From Frateuria sp. Soil773 (GTDB lineage: Bacteria > Pseudomonadota > Gammaproteobacteria > Xanthomonadales > Rhodanobacteraceae): a DNA stretch of 64,000 nucleotides. The position numbers and the translations under genes were made by a program. The stretch is from the NCBI RefSeq assembly GCF_001428405.1, contig NZ_LMSL01000041.1:641087-705086 (forward strand), in the 5' to 3' direction. Below, piece after piece: positions 5,947 through 20,023 of this stretch (its first letter is position 1; every line of letters begins with the position of its first letter). The notes under the pieces are model-generated. The model did not search any database, was not told where the DNA came from, and worked only from the letters and a program-made list of their open reading frames with translations.

Positions 5947-7076
5947 GCGTCCCGCGCGTCGGCATCGTCGGCGCCAGCGGCGCCGTGGGCGCCGCCGCCC
6001 TGGCCTGCCTGCAGGCGGAGGGCCGCTTCGCGCTGCGCGGCGGCTACCGCCATGCGCCGCCGGCCGCCTCCTCGCACGTGGAATGGCTGACGGTGGACGT
6101 GGACGATTCCTCGTCGCTGGCGCGTTTCTGCGAGGGCTGCGCGATCGTGCTCAACGCCGCCGGGCCGTCGTGCCGCATCGGCGACCGCGTCGCCAGGGCT
6201 GCCGACGCGGCCGGCGCGGACTATGTCGACGCCTTCGGCGGCGAGGGCCTGCAACGCCAGCTCGACGCGCAGCCGCTGTCCGCCGGGCGGCGCGCGATCC
6301 ATTCGGCCGGCGTGTTTCCCGGCCTGTCGGGCCTGCTGCCGCGCTGGCTGGCGGCGCAGGGCTTCGACCGCGTACACACGCTGTCGATCTGGGCCGGCGG
6401 CCGCGAGCGCTGCACGCCGGCGGCGGGCGCCGACGTGCTGCTCAGCACCGTCGCCGGCTTCGGCCAGGCCGGCGCCGCCTGGATCGACGGCCGCCGCGTG
6501 GGCGGCGCCCTGGCGCCGCAGGACGGGCTGGAACTGCCGGGCGTGCCCGGCCGCGTGCACGCGCAACCCTTCCTCACCGGCGAACTGGCGCAGCTCGCCG
6601 CCGAGCTGGGGCTGCGCCATGCGCAGTGGCATACCCTGGCGCCGAGCCCGCGCGCGGCCACGCTGATCGGCCGCTGGAGCGGGCGCCTCGCGGCCACGCC
6701 GGCGATCGATCCGGCGATGCTGGCGCAAGCCGTGGCCGACCTGGTGGAAGCGGCCACGCTCGACCTCGCCGGCCACGCGCCCTACTACCGCGCCGTGATC
6801 GAACTGGACGGCCTGCGCGGCGGCCAGCCGCGCCACCGGCGCGCCGTGCTGCGCGCCGGCGACAGCTACCGGCTCAGCGCGGCGGTGGCCGCGGCCGCCG
6901 TACTCGCACTCACCGACGGGAGCCTGCCCTGCGGTACGCACCACGCGGCCGAAACGCTCGATCCCGCCGCGACGCTCGAACGCCTGCACCGCTGGCGCGC
7001 GTACGACGGCCTCGACCTGGTCGAACTCGCGCCGCGTGACGCGGCGACCGCGGTCACCGAGGAAGGCGTGCTGTGA
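5943..7076 (+). CDS. Saccharopine dehydrogenase-like NAD(P)-binding reductase of the siderophore cluster
   Basis: 377 residues. The N-terminus has a Rossmann dinucleotide motif (GASGAVG, residues 10-16), followed by the pattern of the saccharopine dehydrogenase-like superfamily: an acidic strand VDVDDSSSL, then VLNAAGPSC, then a DAAGADYVDAFG segment. The start ATG overlaps the NRPS stop (ATGA) and the stop overlaps the next gene (GTGA), so it belongs to the siderophore operon. The substrate cannot be read from the sequence. A second reductase of the thiazolinyl imide type follows immediately, so this protein either reduces another ring or intermediate, or makes or recycles a precursor. The family call is fairly firm; the function is inference from context. 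Confidence 0.72.
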   Translation: MSVPRVGIVGASGAVGAAALACLQAEGRFALRGGYRHAPPAASSHVEWLTVDVDDSSSLARFCEGCAIVLNAAGPSCRIGDRVARAADAAGADYVDAFGGEGLQRQLDAQPLSAGRRAIHSAGVFPGLSGLLPRWLAAQGFDRVHTLSIWAGGRERCTPAAGADVLLSTVAGFGQAGAAWIDGRRVGGALAPQDGLELPGVPGRVHAQPFLTGELAQLAAELGLRHAQWHTLAPSPRAATLIGRWSGRLAATPAIDPAMLAQAVADLVEAATLDLAGHAPYYRAVIELDGLRGGQPRHRRAVLRAGDSYRLSAAVAAAAVLALTDGSLPCGTHHAAETLDPAATLERLHRWRAYDGLDLVELAPRDAATAVTEEGVL

Positions 7077-8167
7077 CGGCCGTCCGCTTGCGCGTCATCG
7101 TCTGCGGCGTCACCTTCGGCCAGGTCTACCTGCGCGGCGCGGCGGGCCTGCCGGAGCACTTCGAGCTCGTCGGCATCCTCGCCCGCGGCAGCGCGCACGC
7201 GCGCGACTGCGCGGCACGCCATGGCGTGCCGCTGTATACCGGCGTGGACCAGCTGCCGCCGCGGGGCGTGGACCTGGCCTGCGTGGTGGTGCGCGCCGGC
7301 GTGGTCGGCGGCGTCGGCACCGAACTGGCGCTGGCCCTGCTCGCGCGCGGCATCCACGTGCTGCAGGAGCATCCGCTGCACCACGATGAGGTCACCGCGT
7401 GTCTGCGCGCAGCACGCGAGACGGGTTGCCGGTATCGCATCAACAGCTTCTATCCGGACGTGGCGCCGGTCGTCCGCTTCATCGACGCGGCGCGACGCGC
7501 ACTGGCGCTGCGCGAGGCGGTCTACCTCGACGCGGCCTGCAGCGTGCACGTGCTGTATCCGCTGGTCGACATGCTCGGGCAGGCGCTGGGCGCGCTGCGG
7601 CCCTGGTCGTTCGCGCTGCAGCCGGCCGGCGACCATGGCGGCCCGTTCACCTGCATCGGCGGACGCATCGGCGGCGTGCCGCTGACCCTGCGCGTGCAGA
7701 ACCAGCTCGACCCCGCCGACCCGGACAACCATACCCAGTTGCTGCACCGGATCGCGCTCGGCACCACCGGCGGCACGCTCACCCTCAGCGATACGCACGG
7801 CCACGTGCTGTGGCATCCGCGCATGCACCTGGAACGGCGCGATGACGGCGTGCTCGACCTGGCCGCCGAGGACGCCGCCGTCGCGCTGCCGGTCGGCTCG
7901 CTGCTGGGGCCGGCCGAGACGCCGACGTTCGGCGCGGTGTTCCGCGAACTGTGGCCGCGCGCGATCGCGCGCGCGCTGCTGCGCATGCATGCGGCGATCG
8001 GCAGCGACTCCGGCGACGCCGCGCTGAACCAGTACACGCTGGCCAGCTGCAAGGCCTGGCAGGAACTCGGCGCCCTGCTGGGTCCGACCCGGCCCCTCGC
8101 GGCCGAGGCGCCACGGCCGCTGCCCGCCGAGGCGCTGCTTGCGGATGCGGACGGCCTGCCGGCATGA
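7073..8167 (+). CDS. Thiazolinyl imide reductase (PchG/Irp3-like)
   Basis: 364 residues of the Gfo/Idh-like type found in thiazoline siderophore pathways, where PchG (pyochelin) and YbtU/Irp3 (yersiniabactin) use NADPH to reduce an enzyme-bound thiazoline to thiazolidine. Visible features are the N-terminal Rossmann strand RVIVCGVTFGQVYLRG, the helix start GSAHARDCAARHG, the strand ending GIHVLQEHPLHHDEV (the EKP-like position of Gfo/Idh enzymes) and the segment YRINSFYPDVAPV. The start is GTG in a GTGA overlap with the upstream stop, and the end overlaps the thioesterase gene (ATGA). Its presence beside a methyltransferase-containing Cy-A-PCP-TE protein supports an N-methylated thiazolidine in the product, as in pyochelin. 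Confidence 0.85.
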   Translation: MTAVRLRVIVCGVTFGQVYLRGAAGLPEHFELVGILARGSAHARDCAARHGVPLYTGVDQLPPRGVDLACVVVRAGVVGGVGTELALALLARGIHVLQEHPLHHDEVTACLRAARETGCRYRINSFYPDVAPVVRFIDAARRALALREAVYLDAACSVHVLYPLVDMLGQALGALRPWSFALQPAGDHGGPFTCIGGRIGGVPLTLRVQNQLDPADPDNHTQLLHRIALGTTGGTLTLSDTHGHVLWHPRMHLERRDDGVLDLAAEDAAVALPVGSLLGPAETPTFGAVFRELWPRAIARALLRMHAAIGSDSGDAALNQYTLASCKAWQELGALLGPTRPLAAEAPRPLPAEALLADADGLPA

Positions 8168-8970
8168 ACGCCGTCCACCTTCCCGCGCGCGCCGCAGACT
8201 CGCCCTGGTTCCGCCGGTACAGCCCGCGCCCGGCCGCGTCGATGCGGCTGGTCTGCCTTCCGCACGCCGGCGGCTCGGCGGGGTTCTTCCGTGCCTGGGC
8301 GGCGCTGCTGCCGGACAGCATCGAGTTGGTGGCCGTGCAGTATCCCGGCCGCGAAGACCGGCTGGACGAACGACCGATGGACGACATGCACGCGCTGGTC
8401 GACGCCATCGCGCAGGCGATGCCGGTGCTGCTCGACCGTCCCTACCTGCTGTTCGGCCACAGCATGGGCGCCGCCGTCGCGCACGAACTGTGCCTGACCC
8501 TGCACGGACGGCGGCAGCGCCTGCCGGCGCACCTGGTGGTGTCCGCCCGCGAAGCGCCAGCACGCCACCACGGCGGCACGCTGCACCGTGCGGGCGAGGA
8601 TGCCCTGCGCCACGAACTGCGCCGGCTTGGCGGCACCCCGGCGGCCCTGCTGGACTGCGACGAATTCTGTGCCCTGCTGCTGCCGCGCATGCGCAGCGAC
8701 TACCGCCTGATCGAAACCTATCGCCCGGCGCTTGCCACGATGCCGCCGCTGCCGCTGGCGATCAGCGCCTTCGTCGGCACGGATGACCACGAACTCGCCA
8801 GCGGCGATGCCGAGGCATGGGCACAGCAGACCTCGCAGGCCTTCCACCTGCGCCGTTTTGCCGGCGACCACTTCTACCTGGTGCCGCAGATGCGGCAGGT
8901 CGTGCATGCGGTGCTGGCATGCGCCGGCAAGGCCGCAACGCCTGCCGATGCGTGGCCTTCGACGCCTTGA
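8164..8970 (+). CDS. Type II thioesterase of the siderophore NRPS (PchC/YbtT-like)
   Basis: 268 residues of the GrsT-type external thioesterase family, which removes wrongly loaded or stalled acyl groups from NRPS carrier domains. The opening RLVCLPHAGGSAGFFRAW and YPGREDRLDE are typical. The nucleophile motif is GHSMG with Ser100; an aspartate lies in FVGTDDHE and the catalytic histidine in FAGDHFYL. The start is the ATG of an ATGA overlap with the reductase gene; longer in-frame extensions run back into that gene and are rejected. It is the last gene of the operon here and meets kdpE tail to tail with about 130 nt between them. In contrast to the terminal thioesterase of the NRPS, it keeps the usual serine. 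Confidence 0.92.
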   Translation: MNAVHLPARAADSPWFRRYSPRPAASMRLVCLPHAGGSAGFFRAWAALLPDSIELVAVQYPGREDRLDERPMDDMHALVDAIAQAMPVLLDRPYLLFGHSMGAAVAHELCLTLHGRRQRLPAHLVVSAREAPARHHGGTLHRAGEDALRHELRRLGGTPAALLDCDEFCALLLPRMRSDYRLIETYRPALATMPPLPLAISAFVGTDDHELASGDAEAWAQQTSQAFHLRRFAGDHFYLVPQMRQVVHAVLACAGKAATPADAWPSTP

Positions 8971-9102
8971 ACGAAACGCTGCGGCATGGATGCGCGGAAC
9001 GCCCTTGCGGCGGCACCCGGCGCGGATCGACCAACCGAAACGGAGCGGTGGCAGGCGGCGTCAGTGCAGCGAAAATGCGCGTTCGTTCCGCCGGGGACCC
9101 AT

Positions 9103-9795
9103 TCAACTCAGGAAGCGATAACCCACGCCCGGCTCGGTCTTCAGCCAGCGAGGGTTGGCCGGGTCGTCGCCCAGCTTCTGCCGCAGCTTGCCGAGCACGA
9201 TGCGCAGGTAGTGCGTGTCCTGCACGTGGCTGGCGCCCCACACCTCGCGCAGCAGCTGCTGCTGGCTGACCACCCGGCCGGCGTGGCGCAGCAGCAGCGC
9301 CAGCACGGCGTACTCCTTGCGGGTGAGCGAAACCGGCGCACCGTCCAGGCTCACCTCGCGGCGCGCCAGGTCCACGCCGAGGCGGCCGTCGTCGTAGCGC
9401 GGCGGCAGCTCCGGCTCGCCGGACGGGCGGTTGCGCAGCAGCGCACGCAGCCGCGCCATCAGCTCCTGGATGCCGAACGGCTTGGTCACGTAGTCGTTGG
9501 CGCCGTGGTCCAACGCGCGCACCTTCTCGCTCTCCGCGTCGCGCACCGACAGCATCAGCACCGGCACCTGGCTCCACTGGCGCAACTCGGCCAGCACGTC
9601 GTGGCCTTCGCGGTCGGGCAGGCCGATGTCGAGGATCACCAGGTCCGGCGATTGCGTGGCCGCCTGCGCCAGGCCTTCGACCGCATTGGCGGCGAGCAGC
9701 ACCTGGTAACCCTCGGCGCGCAGGCCGATGTCGAGGAAGCGGCGGATCTGCGCTTCGTCGTCGATCACCAGGATGCGCGGTGCAGCTGAGCTCAT
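9103..9795 (-). CDS. kdpE: Response regulator KdpE
   Basis: 230 residues, the usual length for an OmpR/PhoB-type regulator. The receiver domain (1-120) has the acidic pair DD at 12-13, the phosphoacceptor D56 in VILDIGLPD and the conserved lysine in YVTKPF. The winged-helix DNA-binding domain follows (about 135-230) with LTRKEYAVLALLLRHAGRVVSQQQLL and the C-terminal hairpin TEPGVGYRF. The ATG overlaps the kdpD stop (ATGA), as in many kdpDE pairs. It should be phosphorylated by KdpD under low K+ or high osmolarity and activate the kdp operon. A candidate target site is the tandem CGCGTAWAG repeat upstream of the operon. Confidence 0.95.
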   Translation of the reverse strand: MSSAAPRILVIDDEAQIRRFLDIGLRAEGYQVLLAANAVEGLAQAATQSPDLVILDIGLPDREGHDVLAELRQWSQVPVLMLSVRDAESEKVRALDHGANDYVTKPFGIQELMARLRALLRNRPSGEPELPPRYDDGRLGVDLARREVSLDGAPVSLTRKEYAVLALLLRHAGRVVSQQQLLREVWGASHVQDTHYLRIVLGKLRQKLGDDPANPRWLKTEPGVGYRFLS

Positions 9796-12473
9796 GGATT
9801 CGTATCGGGCGGCGCCGGCAACGGCAGGCTGATGCGGATGGTGGTGCCGATGCCGTCGCCGGGCAAGGCCTCCACGCTGCCGCCGTGCGCGCCGATCATG
9901 CCGCGGCAGATCGCCAGCCCCAGCCCGGTGCCCTGCGGCGCGCGGTCGCCACGCGATACCGAGTAGAACATGTCGAAGATGCGTGCGCGCTCGTCCTCCG
10001 GGATGCCCGGGCCGCGGTCGCTGACGTCGATCAGCAGGCGTTCGCCACTGCTGCGCACGGTCACGCGGACGGCCTCGCCCGGCGGCGAGAAGCGTGCGGC
10101 GTTCTCCAGGATGTTGAACAGCGCCTGTTCGATCAGGGCGGGATGGACGTAGAGCAGCACACCTTCCGGCGGCGCCGACGTCTCCACACGCAGGTCGGGA
10201 AACTGCTTGCGCAGCCGCGTCACCGCGGCGGCGGCGATCTCGGCGCTGTCGGTCCAGTCGCGGTTGAGCTTGAGCGTGCCGTGGCCGAGCCGGGTCATGT
10301 CGAGCAGGTTCTGGATGTAGCGATCCAGCCGCTGGCCTTCGCCGAGGATGGCCTGCAGCAGGTCGCGGCGCTCGTCCGCCGGCAGCCTGTCCTCGTAGCT
10401 GACCAGGGTGCCGGCCGCGCCGATCATCGAGGCCAGCGGCGAGCGCAGGTCGTGCGAGACGGACGACAGCAGCGCGCTGCGCAGGCGCTCGGTCTCGCCC
10501 TGCACGCGGGCGCCCTCCAGTTCGTCGGACAGCCGCGCGCGCTCCAGCGCCTGGCCGATGTCCTGGGTCATCGCCAGCGCCAGGCTGCGCCGGTCGGCGT
10601 CGAACTCGCCCTGCGCGGGATCGAGATGCAGCGCGACCACGCCCAGCGGACGGCCCTCGCCGCCCAGCGGCAGCATCCAGCACGGCGCGGCGTTCAGCGT
10701 GTCGGTACTGCGGCCCGCCTGCTCGCCGTGGCGTTCGCTCCAGTCGGCGGCGGCCAGGTCCTGCGCGGACAACGCGTGCTCCCGCGGCGCGCTCGCGACC
10801 ACGCGCAGCACCTGCCCCGCGTCGCGGGCGAGGATCGACGCCTCGCAGCGCAGCGCCTGCGCCAGCGCCCGGGTGCCGGCCGCGCGGACGCCATCGGCGT
10901 CGGTGCTGCTGGTCAGCTGCTGGCCCAGTCCCAACAGGGCGCGCGCCTGCGCGTGTGCGGCGCGCAACGATTCCACCTGGCTGGCCAGCCGCGTCGCGAG
11001 GCGGCTGCAGACCAGGGCGGCCAGCAGGAACAGCACCACCGCCAGCACGTCGTCGAGGTTGGCGATCGCCAGCGTGTAGCGCGGCGGCGCGAAGAAGAAG
11101 TTGTATCCCACGAAGCACGAAACGGCCGTATAGACGGCCACGCTCATGCGCGTGCGCACCGCCACCACCAGCACCGCGGTGAGGAAGATCAGCGACAGGT
11201 TCGCCACCGACAGGTAGCGGTCGGCCACGAACGACAATCCGAACGCGACCAGGGTGGCGAGCGTGGCATAGGCGTATTCGCCGCGCGAACCGCGCCCGCC
11301 CGGCAGGCGCAGGCGGCGGCGCGCCTTCGCCCGCTCGCTCGGCGTGGCGATGATGGTCAGCTCCAGGTGTGCCCCGCGGCGCAGCAGCAGTTGGGTCAGC
11401 GAGCGGCCGAGCATGCGCGCCAGCGGCCGTTCGCGGGTGCGCCCGAGGATGATCTGGCCGACGCCTTCGCGGTCAGCATGCGCCAGCAGCTCGTCGGCGA
11501 CGGCATGGCCGCGCAGCACGATGGGCTCGCCGCCGAGACGCCGCGCCAGGCGCATCGCCGCCTCCAGCCGCTCGCGCCGCGCCGGGTCGAGCGTCGCGCC
11601 GGTGTCCACGTAGGCGACGCTCCACGGCGCGCCGCGCCGCTCGGCGATGCGCCGCGCCACGCGCACCAGGTACTCGCTCTGGCCTTGCCCGTCGATCGCC
11701 GCCAGCACGCGGCGGCGCACCGGCATCGCGCCGCCGCGCGCCAGCATCGATTCGCGCAGGTCGCTGTCGACGTGGCCGGCGATCGTGTCCACCGCCAGCT
11801 CGCGCAGGGCGGCCAGGTTGGTCGGCGAGAAGAACGCGTCGAGCGCCGCCGCCGCGGTCTCCGGCACATAGACCTTGCCCTGCTTGAGCCGGCCGATCAG
11901 CTCGCGCGGCGGCAGGTCGACCAGCACGATATCGCGCGCGCGGTCGAGGAAGGCGTCCGGCACGGTCTCGCGCACAGCGATGCCGGTGATCCGGCGCACC
12001 TGGTCGTTGAGGCTTTCCAGGTGCTGCACGTTGAGCGCGCTGTACACCTCGATGCCGGCGTCGAGCAGCTCGGCGATGTCCTGCCAGCGCCGCTCGTGCC
12101 GCCCGCCCGGCAGGTTGCGGTGGGCCAGCTCGTCGACCAGCAGCACCGCCGGCTTGCGCGCCAGCGCGGCGTCCAGGTCGAACTCGCTGAACTCGCGCTC
12201 GCTGCCGTCGGACGCGCGGTAGCGCACCGCGCGCCGCGGCAGTACCTCCAGGCCCTCCAGCAGGGCGGCGGTCTCGGCGCGGCCGTGCGTCTCGACCAGG
12301 CCGACCACCACGTCCACGCCCTGCCGCTTCAGCTCGCGCGCGGCGGACAGCATGGCGTAGGTCTTGCCGACGCCGGGCGCGGCGCCGAGGAAGACCTTGA
12401 GCCGGCGGGTGCGCTCGTCCTGTCCCGCACTCAGCAGGGCATCGGCACGCGCTTCGCGGGAAGGTCCGGTCAT
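9792..12473 (-). CDS. kdpD: Osmosensitive K+ channel sensor histidine kinase KdpD
   Basis: 893 residues, full length for the family. The N-terminal KdpD domain begins with RLKVFLGAAPGVGKTYAML, a Walker A motif at about 30-38, and is followed by a universal-stress-protein-like domain with IDGQGQSEYLVRVARRIAE. A block of about four hydrophobic helices follows (YATLATLVAFGLSFVADRYL and the next segments). Then come a GAF-like region, the phosphoacceptor H674 in SSVSHDLRSPLASM, and an ATPase domain with N box NILENAARFS, DRGPGIP and GTGLGLAIC. It senses K+ limitation in the inner membrane and phosphorylates KdpE. It lies about 120 nt downstream of kdpC and overlaps kdpE. Confidence 0.97.
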   Translation of the reverse strand: MTGPSREARADALLSAGQDERTRRLKVFLGAAPGVGKTYAMLSAARELKRQGVDVVVGLVETHGRAETAALLEGLEVLPRRAVRYRASDGSEREFSEFDLDAALARKPAVLLVDELAHRNLPGGRHERRWQDIAELLDAGIEVYSALNVQHLESLNDQVRRITGIAVRETVPDAFLDRARDIVLVDLPPRELIGRLKQGKVYVPETAAAALDAFFSPTNLAALRELAVDTIAGHVDSDLRESMLARGGAMPVRRRVLAAIDGQGQSEYLVRVARRIAERRGAPWSVAYVDTGATLDPARRERLEAAMRLARRLGGEPIVLRGHAVADELLAHADREGVGQIILGRTRERPLARMLGRSLTQLLLRRGAHLELTIIATPSERAKARRRLRLPGGRGSRGEYAYATLATLVAFGLSFVADRYLSVANLSLIFLTAVLVVAVRTRMSVAVYTAVSCFVGYNFFFAPPRYTLAIANLDDVLAVVLFLLAALVCSRLATRLASQVESLRAAHAQARALLGLGQQLTSSTDADGVRAAGTRALAQALRCEASILARDAGQVLRVVASAPREHALSAQDLAAADWSERHGEQAGRSTDTLNAAPCWMLPLGGEGRPLGVVALHLDPAQGEFDADRRSLALAMTQDIGQALERARLSDELEGARVQGETERLRSALLSSVSHDLRSPLASMIGAAGTLVSYEDRLPADERRDLLQAILGEGQRLDRYIQNLLDMTRLGHGTLKLNRDWTDSAEIAAAAVTRLRKQFPDLRVETSAPPEGVLLYVHPALIEQALFNILENAARFSPPGEAVRVTVRSSGERLLIDVSDRGPGIPEDERARIFDMFYSVSRGDRAPQGTGLGLAICRGMIGAHGGSVEALPGDGIGTTIRISLPLPAPPDTNP

Positions 12474-12595
12474 GGCCTCATTCTCGCCGGTTTGCGTGCG
12501 TCAGGCTCGCCTGTACCGAAGAAGGAATGGGCCGGGCACGGGCGCGCGCCACCCTCACGCGCGGATCCGCGCGCAACCGGGCAGGCCTGCGCGCC

Positions 12596-13198
12596 TCACC
12601 TGGCGTCCCGCCCCGGCACGGAGCCAGCGGGCATCGCATCCAGCGCCAGGTTGAGCTGCAGCACGTTCACCCGCGGCTCGCCCAGCACGCCGAACTGGCG
12701 GCCGGAGGTGTACCGCGCCACCAGCGCCCGCACCTGCGCCATGTCCAGCCCGCGCGCCCGCGCCACCCGCGCCGCCTGGTACTGCGCCGCGGCGGGGCTG
12801 ATCTGCGGATCGAGGCCGCTGCCCGAAGCGGTGACCAGATCCACCGGCACCGGCGCCTCGTTGCCCGGGTCGGCCCGGCGCAGCGCGACGATGCGCTGCC
12901 TGGCCGCCTCGGCCAGCGCCGGGTTGGTCGGCCCCAGGTTGGAACCGGACGACGCACCGGCGTTGTACGCGTTCGGCGCGGTCGCCGACGGCCGGCCCCA
13001 GAAATACTTCGGCTCGGTGAACGCCTGGCCGATCAGCGCCGAGCCGACCGGCTTGCCGTCTTTCTCGACCAGGCTGCCGTTGGCCTGGCGCGGGAAGATC
13101 AGTTGGGCCAGCCCGGTGACGGCCAGTGGGTACAGCACGCCGGTGACCGCGGTCAGCACCAGCAGCAGGACGAGGGAGGGGCGCAGCAGTTTGCTCAT
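12596..13198 (-). CDS. kdpC: K+-transporting ATPase subunit C (KdpC)
   Basis: 200 residues. One N-terminal membrane helix ([20 protein letters not shown]) is followed by a periplasmic domain with family motifs [57 protein letters not shown] and the C-terminal [10 protein letters not shown]. KdpC stabilizes the KdpA-KdpB complex and supports K+ binding. The start is the ATG giving MSKLLRPSL; the frame runs further upstream, but that part has no family similarity and overlaps the porin gene in another frame. It is separated from kdpB by a small ORF and a porin gene, which is not the usual kdpABC arrangement. Confidence 0.97.
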
Positions 13199-13272
13199 GG
13201 TTGTCACCGCTTTTCGGGAAAGTGGCCGGCGTGGACGGCCGGCCGTTGCCACACGGGGCAGGATCGCCCGCA

Positions 13273-14079
13273 TCAGAAGCTGCCCTGCAGCATCACGAAA
13301 ACGCGCGAACCGCCCATGTTGCGCGTGTCGCCGGCATCGAGAAAGCTGCTCGTGCGCCGGTAGAAAGCGGCGTTGGTGGCATGCGTGGCGCCCGCGCCCA
13401 GCGACCAGTGCGCGGCTAACTGGTACTTCAGCGTGGCGCCGAAGTCGCTGTAGCCGGGATCGCGCGCGCCACTCGCCAGCGGCGCGGCGAGCGTGGTGGT
13501 GTAATGCGTGTGGCCGGCGTGCAGGGCGAGGCTCCAGGCCGCGCCGAGCGGGATGAGCGCATCGAGTTGCAGGTAGCCGGTGCCCTTGGAATCGCCCCGG
13601 TAGCCCTGCTCCGTATCCACGCCGAAGTAGTCGGTGATCGCGCGGTTGTATTTCAGGGTGAGCCATTTCCAGCTCAGGGCGGCGTTGGCCTCGACCGTGT
13701 CGAACGAGCGCGACGACAGCCCGGCCCGGTCGAGGTCGGCGCCCGGGTACACGTAACCGTACACGCCGGCACGCCAGGACCAGTCGTCGTCGATCGACCG
13801 TCCGTAGCTGGCGTAGAGGTCCAGCTCCATCGCGCCGCCCGGGTAGCTGCGCTCGCTGATGCTCGATGCCCACAAGCCGGCGGCGAAACCGCCCGGGCCG
13901 GTGTAGTCGGCGCCGCCCTGGATCGCCGGCCGGCCCCAGGTCTGGGTCAGGCCGCGGAACATGTAGTCGGAGGTCACGGCGACGTTGCCGGTGACCGGGC
14001 TCGCCGGTGCGTCGCCGGCATGCACGGCGACGGCGAGGGATGCGAAGGCTGCCGCGGCAGCGAGGGAAAGCGGTTTCAT
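13273..14079 (-). CDS. TorF-family putative outer-membrane porin inside the kdp operon
   Basis: 268 residues with a clear signal peptide ([21 protein letters not shown], cleavage near residue 21). The mature part begins with [28 protein letters not shown], the hallmark opening of the TorF / gcw_chp putative porin family, and continues in alternating beta-strand style to a C-terminal phenylalanine (VFVMLQGSF), as expected of an outer-membrane barrel. It lies between the 76-residue ORF (69 nt away) and kdpC (74 nt), all on the same strand, so it is likely co-transcribed with kdp and induced by K+ limitation. Passage of K+ or another cation through the outer membrane is an inference from context only. 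Confidence 0.88.
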
Positions 14080-14148
14080 GGCGGGAACCTCGGCGCCGTG
14101 CCTGTCGGGGCGGCGCCTGTCTGGGGATTGCGGGGTTGGAGCGTCGGA

Positions 14149-14379
14149 TCAGATGCCGGCGTAACCGCCGAGCACGTAGTCGTCGTCGCGCGGCGATTCG
14201 CTGTCGCGCGGCAGCGGCACCACGTTGTCGCGTGGCAGTCGCACCGCCTGGGCGGGCTGCCCCGACTGCACCGGCAGCGCGATCACCACGTCGCAGGCGG
14301 AATCGTCGGCGGACAGCCGCAGCTCCATGTCGGGGTGGGCGGCGCCGGGAAGGGATACGGATACTTTCAATGTCTGCAT
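14149..14379 (-). CDS. 76-residue protein of unknown function between kdpB and the porin gene
   Basis: I do not recognise a family. The predicted product has no signal peptide or membrane helix. It opens with a strand-like stretch ([20 protein letters not shown]), and its C-terminal half is rich in Pro, Arg and Asp ([26 protein letters not shown]). A GGAG ribosome-binding site lies about 9 nt ahead of the ATG, supporting a real gene. It lies in the same direction as the kdp genes, 112 nt after kdpB (a gap that holds a dispersed inverted repeat) and 69 nt before the porin gene. Codon use looks like that of its neighbours. Confidence 0.6.
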
Positions 14380-14403
14380 GACAGCGCTCCAGGGAAGGGA
14401 GTC

Positions 14404-14479
14404 GTCATCCGGTCGAAGGCCGGGATCCAGGATCGTTGATGCGACGAGGCCACTGGACTCCGGCCTTCGCCGGAATGAC
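14404..14479. repeat. Dispersed inverted repeat (GTCATCC...GGAATGAC type), copy 1
   Basis: The left arm GTCATCCGGTCGAAGGCCGG and the right arm ending CCGGCCTTCGCCGGAATGAC are imperfect inverted copies about 25 nt long, each with an inner ATCCAG/CTGGA, separated by roughly 20 nt. It lies between kdpB and the 76-residue ORF, so it would form a hairpin inside the kdp transcript and could damp expression or stabilize upstream mRNA. Related copies lie at 19893, 25506 and 25788. Confidence 0.8.
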
Positions 14480-14491
14480 GAGCAAAGGGAA

Positions 14492-16564
14492 TCAGGCCAG
14501 TCCGCACAGGACCAGCAGCATGTCGATCAGCTTGATGCCGAGGAACGGCACGACCATGCCGCCCAGGCCGTAGACCAGCAGGTTGCGGCGCAGCAGCGCG
14601 CCGGCGCCGAGCGCGCGGTACTTCACGCCCTTCAGCGCCAGCGGGATCAGGCACACGATGATCAGCGCGTTGAAGATCACCGCCGACAGGATCGCGCTCT
14701 GCGGCGTCGCCAGGCGCATCACGTTGAGCGCGTTGAGCGCGGGATAAGTCGTCGCGAACGCGGCCGGGATGATCGCGAAGTACTTGGCGATGTCGTTGGC
14801 GATGGAGAAGGTGGTCAGCGCGCCACGGGTGATCAGCATCTGCTTGCCGATCGCCACCACCTCGATCAACTTGGTCGGGTTGGAATCGAGGTCGACCATG
14901 TTGCCGGCCTCTTTCGCGGCCTGGGTGCCGGTGTTCATCGCCACCGCCACGTCGGCCTGCGCCAGCGCCGGCGCGTCGTTGGTGCCGTCGCCGCACATCG
15001 CCACCAGCCGGTTCTCGGCCTGCATGTCGCGGATCAGCTTGAGCTTGGCTTCCGGCGTGGCCTCGGCGAGGAAGTCGTCCACCCCGGCCTCCGCCGCGAT
15101 GGCGGCGGCGGTGAGCGGGTTGTCGCCGGTGATCATCACGGTCTTGATGCCCATCTTGCGCATCTCGGCGAAGCGCTCCTTGATGCCGCCCTTGACGATG
15201 TCCTTCAGCTCGATCACGCCCAGCGCGCTCGAACCCTCGGCGACGACCAGCGGCGTGGCGCCGCGGCGGGCGACGTCCTCGGCCAGGCGCCTGACCATCG
15301 GCGGCAGGTGGCTGCCCTGCCCGTCCAGGTATTTCTCCACCGCATCCAAGGCGCCCTTGCGGATCCGCCGCGCGTCGCTGTCCACGCCGCTCATGCGGGT
15401 CTGCGCGGTGAACGGCACGAACTGCGCGTGCAGGGCCTCGAGCGGCTGCTCGCGCAGGCCGAACTTTTCCTTCGCCAGCACCACCACGCTGCGCCCTTCG
15501 GGCGTCTCGTCGGCCAGCGAGGCGAGCTGCGCGGCCTCGGCGAGGACGCTTTCCTCCACCCCCGGCGCCGGGTGGAAGGCCACCGCCTGGCGGTTGCCCA
15601 GGGTGATCGTGCCGGTCTTGTCCAGCAGCAGCACGTCGACGTCGCCTGCCGCCTCGACCGCGCGGCCGGAGGTGGCGATCACGTTGGCGCGGATCATCCG
15701 GTCCATGCCGGCGATGCCGATCGCCGAAAGCAGCGCGCCGATGGTGGTGGGGATCAGGCAGACCAGCAGCGCGACCAGCACGGTCAGCGTGATCGGGTTG
15801 CCGCCGCCGGCCGCCTGCACGCTGTAGATCGAATACGGCAGCAGGGTGGCGCAGGCGAGCAGGAAGATCAGGGTGAACTTGGCCAGCAGGATGGTCAGCG
15901 CGATCTCGTTCGGCGTCTTGCGCCGCTTGGAGCCTTCCACCATCGCGATCATGCGGTCGAGGAAGCTCTCGCCGGGATTGCTGGTGATGCGCACCACCAG
16001 CCAGTCCGACAGCACACGGGTGCCGCCGGTGACCGCGCTGCGGTCGCCGCCGGACTCGCGGATCACCGGGGCGGACTCGCCGGTGATCGCGCTCTCGTCC
16101 ACGCTGGCCGCGCCGGCCACCACCTCGCCGTCGCCCGGGATCGGCTCGCCCGCCTCGACCAGCACGTGGTGGCCGCTGCGCAACTCGCTGGATGGCGTGA
16201 AGGTGATCGCGGCGTTGCGGTCGGCTGATGCCAGCTTCTTCGCGAGCACGTCCTTGCGCGAGCTGCGCAGCGCATGGGCCTGCGCCTTGCCGCGCCCCTC
16301 CGCCAGCGCCTCGGCGAAATTGGCGAACAGCAGGGTGAACCACAGCCACAGGCTGACCCAGAAGATGAAGCCGGTCGGCGCCTCGCCGTGCCCGGCCAGC
16401 GCCTGCACCCACAGCACGGTGGTCAGCACGCTGCACACGAACACCACGAACATCACCGGGTTGCGGAACTGCAGCCGCGGCGACAGCTTGCGGAACGAAT
16501 CGGCCAGCGCCGTGAGAACCAGCTCGCGGTCGAAACCGCGGGCGGCATGGGTTTGCGAAGTCAT
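14492..16564 (-). CDS. kdpB: K+-transporting P-type ATPase subunit B (KdpB)
   Basis: 690 residues. This is the catalytic ATPase subunit of the Kdp pump in the inner membrane. It has the actuator loop TGES (161-164), the phosphorylation motif DKTGT (D315 is the phosphorylated aspartate), the nucleotide-domain segment [12 protein letters not shown], and the hinge motifs TGDNPLTA and [20 protein letters not shown]. Membrane segments sit at about 35-90, 220-285 and in the last 110 residues. The ATG lies 3 nt after the kdpA stop, so translation is probably coupled. No key residue is missing. Confidence 0.98.
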
Positions 16565-16567
16565 GGA

Positions 16568-18376
16568 TCAATGCCCCGTAGCGGACAGCAGGGATTCGAC
16601 GATCGGCCCGAGGGCCAATGCGGGAAGGAAAGTCAACGCGCCCACCACGATCACCACGCAGGCCAGCAGCGCGACGAACAGCGGCGTGTGCGTGGGCAGC
16701 GTGCCGGCGGACTCGGGCACGTGGCGCTTGGCGGCGAGCGAGCCGGCCATCGCCAGCATCGCGATGGCGAGCGGGAAGCGCGCGAGGAACATGCACAGCC
16801 CCAGCAGCACGTTCCAGAACGGCGTGTTCGCCGAGAGGCCGCCGAACGCGCTGCCGTTGTTGTTGGAGGCCGAGCTGACCGCGTACAGGATCTCGCTGAA
16901 GCCGTGCGCGCCGGGGTTGGCGACGCCCGCCACGCCGGCCGGCAGCAGCACGGCGACCGCGGTGCAGATCACCACCAGCGCGCACGGCAGCAGCACCGCG
17001 AGGCTGGCCATCTTCATCTCGTGGGCCTCGATCTTCTTGCCCAGGTATTCCGGCGTGCGGCCGACCATCAGCCCCGCGATGAATACGGCGACGACGGCGA
17101 AGGCGAGCATGCCGTACAGCCCCGAGCCGACGCCGCCGAAGACCACCTCGCCGAGCTGCATCAGCCACATCGGCACCAGGCCGCCCAGCGGCGTGAGCGA
17201 ATCGTGCATCGCGTTCACCGCGCCGCACGAGGCGGCCGTGGTGATCGCCGCGAACAGGCCGCTGGAGGCGATGCCGAAGCGCGTCTCCTTGCCTTCCATG
17301 TTGCCGCCGGCCTGCAGCGCCGAGGCGTGCGCATCCACCGCCAGCCCGTGCAGCGCCGGGTTGCCGGCCTGCTCTGCCGCGACCAGGCCCAGCGTCAGCG
17401 GTACGAAGATCAGCAGCATCGTGGCGAGGATCGCCCAGCCCTGCCGCCGGTCGCCCACCATGCGGCCGAAGGTGTAGCAGAGCCCCGCCGGGATCAGGAA
17501 GATCGCCAGCATCTCGATGAAGTTGGAGAACGGCGTGGGATTCTCATACGGGTGCGCCGAGTTGGCGTTGAAGAAGCCGCCGCCGTTGGTGCCCAGGTGC
17601 TTGATCGCGATCTGCGAGGCGGCCGGGCCCATCGGCAGGGTCTGCGTGACGACCGGGACGTCGCGGGTCATCTCGTGGCCGGCAGCATCCTTCTGCGGAT
17701 GGCCGGCGGCATCCTTGACGGTCTCCGTATAGCTGGTGGCCTGTGCCACCGGCACGTCGACGTACGGCTTGAAGTTCTGCACCACGCCCTGCGACACCAG
17801 CAGCAGGCTCATCAGCAGCGACAGCGGCACCAGCACGTACAGCGTGCTGCGCGTGAGGTCGACCCAGAAGTTGCCGATGGCCTTCGCGCCGCGCCGGGCG
17901 AAGCCGCGCACCACCGCCACCAGCACCGCGATGCCGGTGGCCGCGGAGAGGAAGTTCTGCACCGCCAGGCCGAGCATCTGGGTCAGGTAGCTCATCGTCG
18001 ACTCGCCGCCGTAGCCCTGCCAGTTGGTGTTGCTGGCGAAGCTGATCGCGGTGTTCATCGCCGAGTCCGGCGACACCGCGGCGAAGTGCTGCGGGTTCAG
18101 CGGGAGCCACTGCTGCACGCGCTGCAACAGGTACACGGCCAGCAGGCCGAGCACGTTGAACAGCAGCATCGCCAGCGCATAGCGCTTCCAGCCCATGTCC
18201 TCGTCGGGCCGGATGCCGCACAGCCGGTAGATGCCGCGCTCCGCGCGGCCGCCGAAGCGGGTGACGCGGTTGGGCGCATCGGCGAACACCAGCGCCATGT
18301 AGTTGCCGACCGGCTTGACCAGCAGCAGCAACACGGCCAGGAACAGGCCGACCTGCAGGATGTCGTTGGCGGTCAT
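16568..18376 (-). CDS. kdpA: K+-transporting ATPase subunit A (KdpA)
   Basis: 602 residues, somewhat longer than the roughly 557 of E. coli KdpA. It is the K+-selecting, channel-like subunit with four pore repeats; visible pore segments include SFASNTNWQGYGGES, KHLGTNGGGFFNANSAHP, TAASCGAVNAMHDS and SSASNNNGSAFGG. About ten hydrophobic helices are present. The extra length is partly a hydrophilic loop before LPMGPAASQ that contains the duplicated unit KDAAGHPQ/KDAAGHEM, from a 24-nt DNA repeat at about 17677-17724. The start is the ATG giving MTANDILQVG, which overlaps the kdpF stop by ATGA; a few residues of open frame precede it but lie inside kdpF. Confidence 0.97.
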   Translation of the reverse strand: MTANDILQVGLFLAVLLLLVKPVGNYMALVFADAPNRVTRFGGRAERGIYRLCGIRPDEDMGWKRYALAMLLFNVLGLLAVYLLQRVQQWLPLNPQHFAAVSPDSAMNTAISFASNTNWQGYGGESTMSYLTQMLGLAVQNFLSAATGIAVLVAVVRGFARRGAKAIGNFWVDLTRSTLYVLVPLSLLMSLLLVSQGVVQNFKPYVDVPVAQATSYTETVKDAAGHPQKDAAGHEMTRDVPVVTQTLPMGPAASQIAIKHLGTNGGGFFNANSAHPYENPTPFSNFIEMLAIFLIPAGLCYTFGRMVGDRRQGWAILATMLLIFVPLTLGLVAAEQAGNPALHGLAVDAHASALQAGGNMEGKETRFGIASSGLFAAITTAASCGAVNAMHDSLTPLGGLVPMWLMQLGEVVFGGVGSGLYGMLAFAVVAVFIAGLMVGRTPEYLGKKIEAHEMKMASLAVLLPCALVVICTAVAVLLPAGVAGVANPGAHGFSEILYAVSSASNNNGSAFGGLSANTPFWNVLLGLCMFLARFPLAIAMLAMAGSLAAKRHVPESAGTLPTHTPLFVALLACVVIVVGALTFLPALALGPIVESLLSATGH

Positions 18377-18465
18377 TCGAACCACTCCGGCTTGAGCAGG
18401 GCCACGCACAGGTAGCCCACCAGGGCCACCGCGATCAGCGCGGCGATGAGGTAGAGAACGTTCAT
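18373..18465 (-). CDS. kdpF: KdpF, small membrane subunit of the K+-ATPase
   Basis: A 30-residue peptide, MNVLYLIAALIAVALVGYLC followed by VALLKPEWFE. It is a single hydrophobic helix ending in the LxxPExF-like tail (LLKPEWF) typical of KdpF, which packs against KdpA and stabilizes the complex. The stop overlaps the kdpA start (ATGA). It is easily missed because of its size. Confidence 0.92.
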   Translation of the reverse strand: MNVLYLIAALIAVALVGYLCVALLKPEWFE

Positions 18466-18510
18466 GGCGGGAATCTCACGCGGGGAAGGCGGGGCGGAAG
18501 GCGGGCGCGC

Positions 18511-18603
18511 TCACTTGCGCGGCCCGAGCCGGTCGCAGATCAGCACGAAGCCGAGCGCCGCGGCGCACAGCACGAACAGGAACAGCAGGTAGACGACATC
18601 CAT
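18511..18603 (-). CDS. Second 30-residue single-helix peptide upstream of kdpF
   Basis: A short frame encoding MDVVYLLFLFVLCAAALGFV followed by LICDRLGPRK: one membrane helix and a short basic tail. It lies 45 nt upstream of kdpF in the same orientation and is the first frame of the operon. From memory, small peptides of this kind (tail like LCxRL) are found ahead of kdpF in other proteobacteria and are annotated only as hypothetical or KdpF-like; I could not verify this here. The coding call rests on position, on hydrophobicity, and on the exact helix-plus-basic-tail pattern. Function is unknown; an accessory Kdp subunit is plausible. Confidence 0.6.
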   Translation of the reverse strand: MDVVYLLFLFVLCAAALGFVLICDRLGPRK

Positions 18604-18679
18604 CGGCGCCGGCTCATGGGGAAGACGGCGCGCACTGTAGGAAGTGCCGCATAAGAACGGGGTATCGCTTCGGCCGCTT

Positions 18680-18699
18680 CGCGTATAGAACGCGTAAAG
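18680..18699. promoter_or_regulatory. Candidate KdpE operator upstream of the kdp operon
   Basis: Two direct copies, CGCGTATAG (18680-18688) and CGCGTAAAG (18691-18699), start exactly 11 bp apart. They lie 77-96 nt upstream of the first small ORF of the operon, in a local AT-richer patch (read on the minus strand: CTTTACGCG, TT, CTATACGCG). OmpR/PhoB-type regulators such as KdpE bind tandem half-sites spaced by about one helical turn. The spacing and position fit; the assignment itself is inference. Confidence 0.45.
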
Positions 18700-18734
18700 T
18701 TTTCCGGCGAACCGGCGGGTCGCCGCTCAGACGG

Positions 18735-19709
18735 TCATGTGCAACCGGTCAGCGCCGCTTGCGGAGCGGCCGACGGCAGATGGTCGACGCCGTACCCCGC
18801 GGCGTCCCACGCATCGAGCCCGCCCAGCAGCGGGCGCACCCGGTGGTAGCCGATCGCCATCAGCAGCTTGGCCGCCCTGGCCGCGGATACTTCGTTCGGG
18901 CAGCTGCAGTAGATCACCAGCTCGCGATCCGGCGGAACGCCTTGCAGCACCTGGCCGATACCCTCCAGATCGGCCAGCACGGCGCCGGGGATGACCCGCG
19001 TGTCGAGCTGGCGCGCCGCCTGCGAACGCACGTCGACCACCACCGGGGCCCGCCCCTCCGCGATGGACTGGTTCAGTTCCTCCACGGTGATGCGGGCCAT
19101 GCGCAAGGCCACCAGCAGGCGCCGGCGCTGCCACCACTTGGCGGCGATGTAGAGCGCCAGCAAGACCAGCAGCAATTCGAACGCGACCGTGCCGGCACTG
19201 GCCAGAGCGGCCAGCAGACCGTCGACCTGGGCGGTGAACGCGTAGCCAAGCCCGACCGCGACGCCCACCCACAGCAACGAGCCCAGGCCGTCCAGCAGCA
19301 CGAAGGTGCCGGCGCGCAAGCCCATCGCGCCTACCAGCGGCGGGGCTACCGTAGACAGTCCCGGCACGAATTTGGCGATCAGCAACTCCCGCCCTCGCCA
19401 GCGCTGGAAGTGCAGCTCGGACTGCTTCACGCAGGAATCCAGCGACAGCGAGATGCGGCAGATCGTGCGCATCACCCTGGAACCGAAGCGGCGGCCTGCC
19501 CAATACCAGAGCAGATCGCTGAGCAGGCAGGCGAGAACCGCAGCCAGTACCACGCCGGCCAGCGGCAACCTGTCATTTGCGCCCAGTGCACCTGCCACGA
19601 CCAGGGTGGGCACCGCCGGCACCGGCACGCCCGCCTGCTCCACCAGCACGTTGAAGAACACCAGCAGCAAGCCGTACTGCGCGATCAGCACGATGATTTC
19701 GTGGGCCAT
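18735..19709 (-). CDS. DedA-family membrane protein fused to a rhodanese domain
   Basis: 324 residues. The first about 200 residues are a DedA/SNARE-associated domain with several membrane helices, the motif GxRFGSRVMRTICRISLSLDSCV, and the conserved FVPGLSTVAPPLVGAMG. The last about 110 residues form a rhodanese-like domain: VVVDVRSQAARQLDTRVIPGAV, then the active-site loop YCSCPNEVSAARAAKLL with Cys268 as the likely sulfur or thiol carrier, ending GGLDAWDAAGY. The start is the ATG giving MAHEIIVLIAQYG; the frame continues far upstream, but that part has no family features. DedA proteins help flip or transport polyprenyl phosphate or other lipids and maintain membrane potential; the role of the attached rhodanese is unknown. 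It reads toward the kdp operon, 131 nt away. Confidence 0.9.
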   Translation of the reverse strand: MAHEIIVLIAQYGLLLVFFNVLVEQAGVPVPAVPTLVVAGALGANDRLPLAGVVLAAVLACLLSDLLWYWAGRRFGSRVMRTICRISLSLDSCVKQSELHFQRWRGRELLIAKFVPGLSTVAPPLVGAMGLRAGTFVLLDGLGSLLWVGVAVGLGYAFTAQVDGLLAALASAGTVAFELLLVLLALYIAAKWWQRRRLLVALRMARITVEELNQSIAEGRAPVVVDVRSQAARQLDTRVIPGAVLADLEGIGQVLQGVPPDRELVIYCSCPNEVSAARAAKLLMAIGYHRVRPLLGGLDAWDAAGYGVDHLPSAAPQAALTGCT

Positions 19710-20023
19710 CGGTACGCTACCCGTGACGCGATGCGGCCATGATTGGAGCTTGCCCGGGCGATTGCAAACCTCGCGCCCAGGCGGTCGCACAGCCAGCCGC
19801 GGCACCCCGCCGCGGGCATTGCGCGCGCCTTCAGCGGCCCTGCGCGAAGGCTGCAAAGCCTGTTCACGATTTCCAGGCATCCCCCATGAAACGTCATCCC
19901 GGCGAAGGCCGGGATCCAGCGCCTTTGGCGGATCAAGCCACTGGACGACCAGCCTTCGGCCGTCGAAAGCCGCAGGCATGACGAAGAAGCGGCTGGACTG
20001 ACGGATGGATCGTGAACCTGCTT
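19710..20023. other. Intergenic gap between the MFS and DedA genes
   Basis: No credible gene was found. The gap is downstream of the MFS gene and upstream of the DedA-rhodanese gene, and it contains one dispersed inverted repeat (19893-19983). Short frames here are uncharacteristic in composition. Confidence 0.7.
19893..19983. repeat. Dispersed inverted repeat, copy 2
   Basis: It starts GTCATCCCGGCGAAGGCCGG plus GATCCAG and ends, after CTGGACGACCAGCCTTCGGC, with CAGGCATGAC. The outer arms are complementary with mismatches, and the left arm alone contains the small palindrome CCCGGCGAAGGCCGGG. It belongs to the same family as the copies at 14404, 25506 and 25788. Confidence 0.8.

Follow-up and report, generated by a model that had tools for sequence, protein, structure and literature searches.

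Outer-membrane channel genes recur in kdp operons: a TorF-family barrel and a small protein between kdpB and kdpC in Rhodanobacteraceae

Background

Why should the gene for an outer-membrane channel lie inside the operon of an inner-membrane K+ pump? The question is raised by the kdp locus of Frateuria sp. Soil773, a gammaproteobacterium of the Rhodanobacteraceae. The locus lies within a 64,000-nucleotide stretch (contig NZ_LMSL01000041.1, positions 641,087 to 705,086), referred to here as the window. K+ and NH4+ are usually assumed to leak freely through general porins, and models of their uptake draw no outer-membrane step. K+ should pass through ordinary Porin_4 porins, and the two ions have nearly equal radii. 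The initial annotation of the locus placed a porin gene and a small ORF between kdpB and kdpC, and suggested that the pump, paired with an outer-membrane channel of its own, would make up a trans-envelope K+ uptake unit.

The porin belongs to the TorF family, which Pfam labels as "of unknown function". In Shewanella, TorF carries the label of a TMAO reductase system porin (PMC5955497), and TorF protein has been reported on gold particles (PMC13303613). Arrangements of kdp genes in acidophiles have been described, and the accessible portions of those accounts make no mention of a porin there (PMC8886135, PMC9062700). Among the matches listed in our literature searches, whose coverage excludes most subscription journals, there was no report of a porin in a kdp operon.

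Methods

The family sample comprised 41 genomes, 25 of them from the window's family (Rhodanobacteraceae, f1); KdpC was matched in 22, of which 20 belong to that family. Besides the window, 150 kdp loci were compared: 20 from Rhodanobacteraceae, 30 from a class sample together with the order, 80 from a phylum sample and 20 from f213, a family of another class. The set of 30 consisted of G027 and 29 non-own kdp genomes; a thirtieth non-own genome, G260, was left out as a partial match. The phylum sample took 80 of 135 kdp genomes, hand-picked and mostly one per genus; eight others were the window's own or already included. Follow-up of f213 turned up 26 further kdp genomes, of which 20 were taken.

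Inserts were surveyed from kdpA to kdpD as ORFs of at least 200 residues in mechanical gene calls, with those between kdpC and kdpD counted in. Opposite-strand matches near kdp (TorF at L221, BBP2 at L256) were left out of the counts. Genome-wide background counts covered TorF only, in the 80 phylum-sample genomes and the 41 relatives.

Results and discussion

A channel gene inside a complete kdp operon

The window carries a complete kdpFABCDE set on the minus strand, interrupted between kdpB and kdpC by a 76-residue ORF and a gene for a TorF-family barrel (Table 1); the two same-strand ORFs reported there in the initial annotation were both found. The subunits and both regulators of the known high-affinity KdpFABC-KdpDE K+ uptake system are present, and the barrel and the small ORF between kdpB and kdpC are what sets the window apart from it. 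KdpA, KdpB and KdpC all score above their curated cut-offs. Contiguity of kdpABC, in contrast, is absent from the window, and gene order varies among relatives too; it is no requirement for the identity of the pump. The 30-codon ORF at the head of kdpA is presumably kdpF, a name given from general knowledge rather than from a family scan.

Table 1. Features of the kdp locus in the window, and TorF genes found beside ammonium genes at other loci
Feature	Position	Strand	Basis
Hydrophobic-peptide ORF, 30 codons, 5' of kdpF	18511..18603	-	ORF reading
kdpF-like ORF, 30 codons; TGA overlaps kdpA ATG	18373..18465	-	ORF reading
kdpA	16568..18376	-	TIGR00680, 762 bits (cut-off 387.7); start codon placed by the kdpF overlap
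kdpB	14492..16564	-	TIGR01497, 1060 bits (cut-off 527.9)
Two copies of a REP-like repeat (3 mismatches in one of them) between kdpB and the small ORF	14403..14480	.	Repeat count
76-residue ORF, putative small kdp-specific protein	14149..14379	-	Relatives at kdp, alignment, codon changes
TorF-family predicted outer-membrane barrel, 268 residues	13273..14079	-	TIGR02001, 131.5 bits; AlphaFold2 model
kdpC	12596..13198	-	NF001454, 285.8 bits (cut-off 178)
kdpD, sensor kinase	9792..12473	-	Best NCBIfam match NF007793 (KdpD), 631 bits, under the curated cut-off of 1123
kdpE, response regulator; start overlaps kdpD stop	9103..9795	-	Named from position and look
TorF beside glnK-amtB(-glnA)	L071; L089-L130 (e.g. 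L092:7968-12032); L161:6149-8729		

Between the TorF stop codon and the kdpC start the median distance is 13 bp (n = 36), and from this spacing the kdp operon, TorF included, is likely to be read as a single transcript. In a consensus scan of positions 9000-18900, the only terminator-like site was on the plus strand, and neither strand had a sigma-70-like promoter. With up to three mismatches allowed, the window contains five copies of the REP-like repeat (0.03 expected). Because two of these copies sit between kdpB and the small ORF, there may be an internal start or processing site in this gap. Further copies were seen at 19892, 25505 and 25787. Just past kdpE, at 7073-8970, lie ORFs that by eye resemble siderophore-cluster genes for a thioesterase and a thiazolinyl imide reductase.

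The inserted proteins

The 268-residue protein exceeds the TIGR02001 ("TorF family putative porin") cut-off of 47.15 bits by a wide margin and also matches PF09694; in Pfam at E<=1, the only other match was a sub-threshold one to a TonB barrel. The word porin in the family name is an annotation. An AlphaFold2 model from a 56-row alignment has 12 strands at a mean pLDDT of 91.9, and the C-terminal aromatic residue, F268, is invariant in a 10-row alignment and conserved in at least 90% of the 56 rows. TorF is confidently predicted from this model to be a 12-strand outer-membrane beta-barrel. In family score and barrel model the window's protein agrees with the TorF family (TIGR02001/PF09694), and its linkage to Kdp is what differs. 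The solved folds nearest to the model are NanC and KdgM (Z 16.9, rmsd 2.2-2.9, identity 8-12%), monomeric 12-strand porins that serve acidic sugars; the TorF model shares their 12-strand fold, but the protein is not a member of their sequence family, and no PDB sequence matched it at E<=1.

Values of dN/dS for TorF were 0.15-0.30 in six pairs, and the gene looks to be under purifying selection. When inward-facing strand positions were guessed by strand parity, 33 kdp-linked TorFs averaged 6.4 acidic (D/E) against 4.1 basic (K/R) residues, and 23 TorFs away from kdp averaged 8.8 against 4.0. Such a net-acidic lumen, as modelled, would fit a preference for cations and does not single out K+. Lumen charge was rejected as a K+ signature, since the TorFs not linked to kdp are the more acidic. 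Nor could kdp-linked and unlinked TorFs be told apart by the pI or net charge of the mature protein.

The 76-residue ORF matched no family in NCBIfam or Pfam, and no confident fold was predicted for it (mean pLDDT 57.6). Its last seven residues read LGGYAGI in 18 of 18 aligned rows, while the remainder is loosely conserved; among eight further copies, one has R for L in this motif. Synonymous codon changes occur within the tail, and six pairs gave dN/dS values of 0.33-0.51; because of both, the ORF is very likely a protein-coding gene. With a profile built from 18 relatives, the small protein was found at kdp in at least 11 of the 20 kdp-bearing Rhodanobacteraceae, next to TorF or to the BBP2 barrel described below. 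The profile gave two extra weak matches away from kdp (E 0.02 and 0.09), which look like chance, and on these searches the protein is taken to be specific to kdp.

Conservation within Rhodanobacteraceae

The order kdpB-(small ORF)-TorF-kdpC, with TorF at 52% identity or more, is found in nine of the 20 kdp-bearing genomes of the family, the window included. In eight others, kdpB adjoins an unrelated barrel, BBP2 (PF07642, about 490 residues), which lies in the kdpB-kdpC gap in seven and in the kdpB-kdpD gap in G021. Four of these eight proteins and that of G002, which carries both TorF and BBP2, were scanned by Pfam, and the rest were identified by a local HMM; one BBP2 protein searched against the PDB had no relatives by sequence. 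BBP2 takes the place of TorF at kdp in this part of the family. In G004 and G013, TorF lies just upstream of kdpA, and in a second kdp set of G020 kdpE is followed by a PF13557-like channel, recognised by local HMM alone.

In all, an intact barrel is present at kdp in 19 of the 20 kdp-bearing genomes. The exception is G024 (L038), a genome of 2.5 Mb, where one frame in the kdpB-kdpC gap resembles the TorF C-terminus by eye and is an apparent TorF remnant. In the five Rhodanobacteraceae that lack kdpC, no TorF exceeds 41% identity to that of the window.

Among 80 loci listed from named genomes, some of which are the same genomes as those in our numbered samples, kdpB-TorF-kdpC occurs in 37 and kdpC-TorF-kdpD in two near-identical ones (L108, L112). 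The genera represented include Rhodanobacter, Dyella, Luteibacter, Frateuria, Fulvimonas, Rudaea and Dokdonella. The initial annotation had asked whether the order is conserved in related genomes or confined to this strain; it is conserved in nine of the 20, across several genera, and the arrangement is not one of a single strain. A chance or strain-specific insertion is ruled out by this conservation together with the recurrence described next.

Recurrence outside the family

Same-strand barrels were found at kdp in 36 of the 150 loci: 19 of 20 in Rhodanobacteraceae, 3 of 30 in the class set, 8 of 80 in the phylum sample and 6 of 20 in f213, the last not an unbiased rate, since that family was chosen because two of its members were positive. 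Outside Rhodanobacteraceae, therefore, TorF, BBP2 or PF13557 occurs at 17 of 130 kdp loci, and most kdp operons are without a channel gene. The position of the barrel varies: it may lie upstream of kdpA, in the order kdpB-X-kdpC or kdpC-X-kdpD, or, where the genes run kdpA-C-B, as kdpB-X-kdpD. PF13557, a third channel family, was found in or beside kdp at L242, L248, L258 and, by local HMM only, L046; in three of these cases it lies between kdpB and kdpC.

What is inserted is seldom anything else. Between kdpA and kdpD, the same 130 loci contain 17 ORFs that lie on the operon's strand and are at least 200 residues long, of which 15 are barrels (twelve TorF/BBP2 and three PF13557) and two are CorA-like; with f213 set aside, 9 of 11 inserts in 110 loci are barrels. 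The statement that kdpABC are almost always contiguous thus holds outside the family, where those 17 inserts, including the ones between kdpC and kdpD, are spread over 130 loci; it fails for the window itself. Both CorA-like genes lie between kdpC and kdpD (L132:8611-9789 and L186:7309-8964); one scores above the Pfam cut-off and the other just below it.

The 80 phylum-sample genomes contain 68 distinct TorF places, eight of which share the strand of kdpC and are no more than about 6 kb away from it, against 0.08 expected, the expectation being a rough uniform model with rounded inputs (65 TorF genes, 5.0 Mb) that the use of 68 places hardly changes. On a tree of 60 TorF sequences, 23 of them kdp-linked, the kdp label changes 11 times by gain or loss, and at least 10 of these changes are forced by well-supported branches; the label is still clustered, with 11 changes against a mean of 18.5 when shuffled. 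In f150 the kdp-linked TorF and the unlinked one from that genome are sisters, and f192 has linked and unlinked copies intermixed. Descent of TorF as one inherited kdp subunit was rejected on account of the 11 label changes and the f150 pair.

Channel genes have thus been placed in the kdp operon several times, in our reading by selection, from TorF, BBP2 or PF13557. The genomic half of the initial annotation gains from this survey: the linkage is conserved across genera, has arisen repeatedly and involves three families of outer-membrane channels. A porin gene might instead have landed in an ancestral operon and stayed there with no functional link, as could be argued from the many kdp operons outside Rhodanobacteraceae that manage without a channel. 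We consider this very improbable; the linkage recurs on the tree and in three channel families, the eight TorFs near kdpC far exceed chance, and barrels dominate the inserts.

TorF genes beside ammonium operons

Away from kdp, TorF has another common neighbour. GlnK or AmtB lies within 4 kb in 34 of 41 unlinked TorF loci from the named set, mostly as TorF-glnK-amtB with glnA nearby, in a set retrieved by likeness to the kdp-type TorF and leaning to one order. In a wider sample of 20 unlinked TorFs (the best-scoring one from each of 18 other families, plus two more), GlnK and AmtB are both present within about 3.5 kb in seven and neither is present in 13. Here the same porin family accompanies an inner-membrane system whose cation is of nearly equal size, NH4+ rather than K+. 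The usual amtB-linked TorFs form clades apart from the kdp-type ones, with two exceptions. At L071 (Rhodanobacter sp. C06), a TorF nested in the kdp-type clade lies directly downstream of glnK-amtB; L161, the second TorF of G023 (50-52% identity), has the same position. These are both of the TorFs resembling the kdp clade that were found away from kdp, and each is at an ammonium operon.

Because the L071 and L161 TorFs adjoin glnK-amtB, strict K+ specificity is weakened, and the ammonium pairing supports a small-cation channel. On gene neighbourhood, TorF looks like a family of small-cation channels rather than a Kdp subunit. The idea that the porin is the pump's own channel survives in part: its place at kdp is conserved, but its relatives are often paired with AmtB.

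These contexts would also fit a broader reading, in which TorF is a general channel for small cations and small amines (K+, NH4+, choline, betaine, TMAO), recruited beside whichever transporter needs one and not specific to K+. GlnK or AmtB near unlinked TorFs in both samples, the two kdp-like TorFs at ammonium operons and the TMAO label of the Shewanella TorF (PMC5955497) all point this way, as does a TorF right behind genes that by eye resemble betaine-aldehyde and choline dehydrogenases (L287:375-4207). Taken alone, however, such a general channel leaves the entry of BBP2 and PF13557 into kdp operons unexplained, and we find the case for it evenly balanced.

Kdp operons are induced by osmotic upshift as well as by K+ scarcity, and the barrel could accordingly pass compatible solutes and not K+. 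Together with that induction, the betaine-like and TMAO contexts of some TorFs would agree with a role in osmoadaptation. We regard it as unlikely: apart from the two CorA-like genes, the operons surveyed up to kdpE contain no solute-transport gene, and the nearest paralogs pair with AmtB.

A proposed role in K+ scavenging

The reading we prefer, at a probability of roughly 0.7, is that TorF at kdp is a channel for small cations, expressed together with the K+ pump, and that the two form a trans-envelope unit for K+ scavenging. Under K+ scarcity, KdpDE would switch on the operon, and TorF, as a 12-strand outer-membrane diffusion channel made together with the Kdp pump, would raise the permeability of the outer membrane to K+ and similar small cations. 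KdpFABC would then draw K+ from the periplasm into the cell, with the small protein as a putative accessory of the kdp operon. Linkage, conservation and recurrence in several families are observed; K+ conduction, co-transcription, control by KdpDE and a benefit at low K+ are what we infer from genomic context.

In favour of the scavenging unit we counted the barrels in 19 of 20 Rhodanobacteraceae, the 15 of 17 inserts, the 11 label changes, the 13-bp gap, the porin-like fold, the net-acidic lumen and the paralogs at GlnK-AmtB. Against it stand the few channels outside the family, the porin-rich carriers described below, the more acidic lumen of unlinked TorFs, the 13 of 20 unlinked TorFs away from GlnK and AmtB, the TMAO label of the Shewanella TorF, and the position of L071 and L161 at ammonium operons.

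Because unrelated channel types have repeatedly been placed in kdp operons, the data suggest that some bacteria build a dedicated path for K+ through the outer membrane. A larger proposal is tentative, and we give it slightly less than an even chance: that K+ entry across the outer membrane is limiting in many Gram-negatives and has been solved repeatedly through at least three barrel families in kdp, that TorF is a K+/NH4+ channel family feeding Kdp or AmtB, and that the LGGYAGI-tailed protein is part of the unit in Rhodanobacteraceae. Channel genes in kdp operons and beside glnK-amtB speak against the assumption of free leakage for a set of species. They offer a testable function for the TorF and BBP2 barrels, and the textbook assumption that outer-membrane permeability to K+ never limits becomes directly testable.

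General porins in the same genomes

The barrel might compensate for a scarcity of general porins in the outer membrane and be redundant in porin-rich species. By hand count, 8 of the 33 genomes with a channel and 31 of the 47 others had strong Porin_4 matches (E<1e-10; Fisher p 0.0003). The trend would agree with a need for a dedicated channel in genomes with few general porins, but the comparison is confounded by kinship, since 19 of the 33 belong to one family. Five channel-bearing genomes are porin-rich, with 8 to 20 Porin_4 matches each (G262, G494, G589, G468 and G425). Given this confounding and these exceptions, a porin-poor outer membrane can serve only in part as the explanation; we hold compensation to be possible rather than probable, and it is compatible with, not opposed to, a channel and pump acting together in K+ scavenging.
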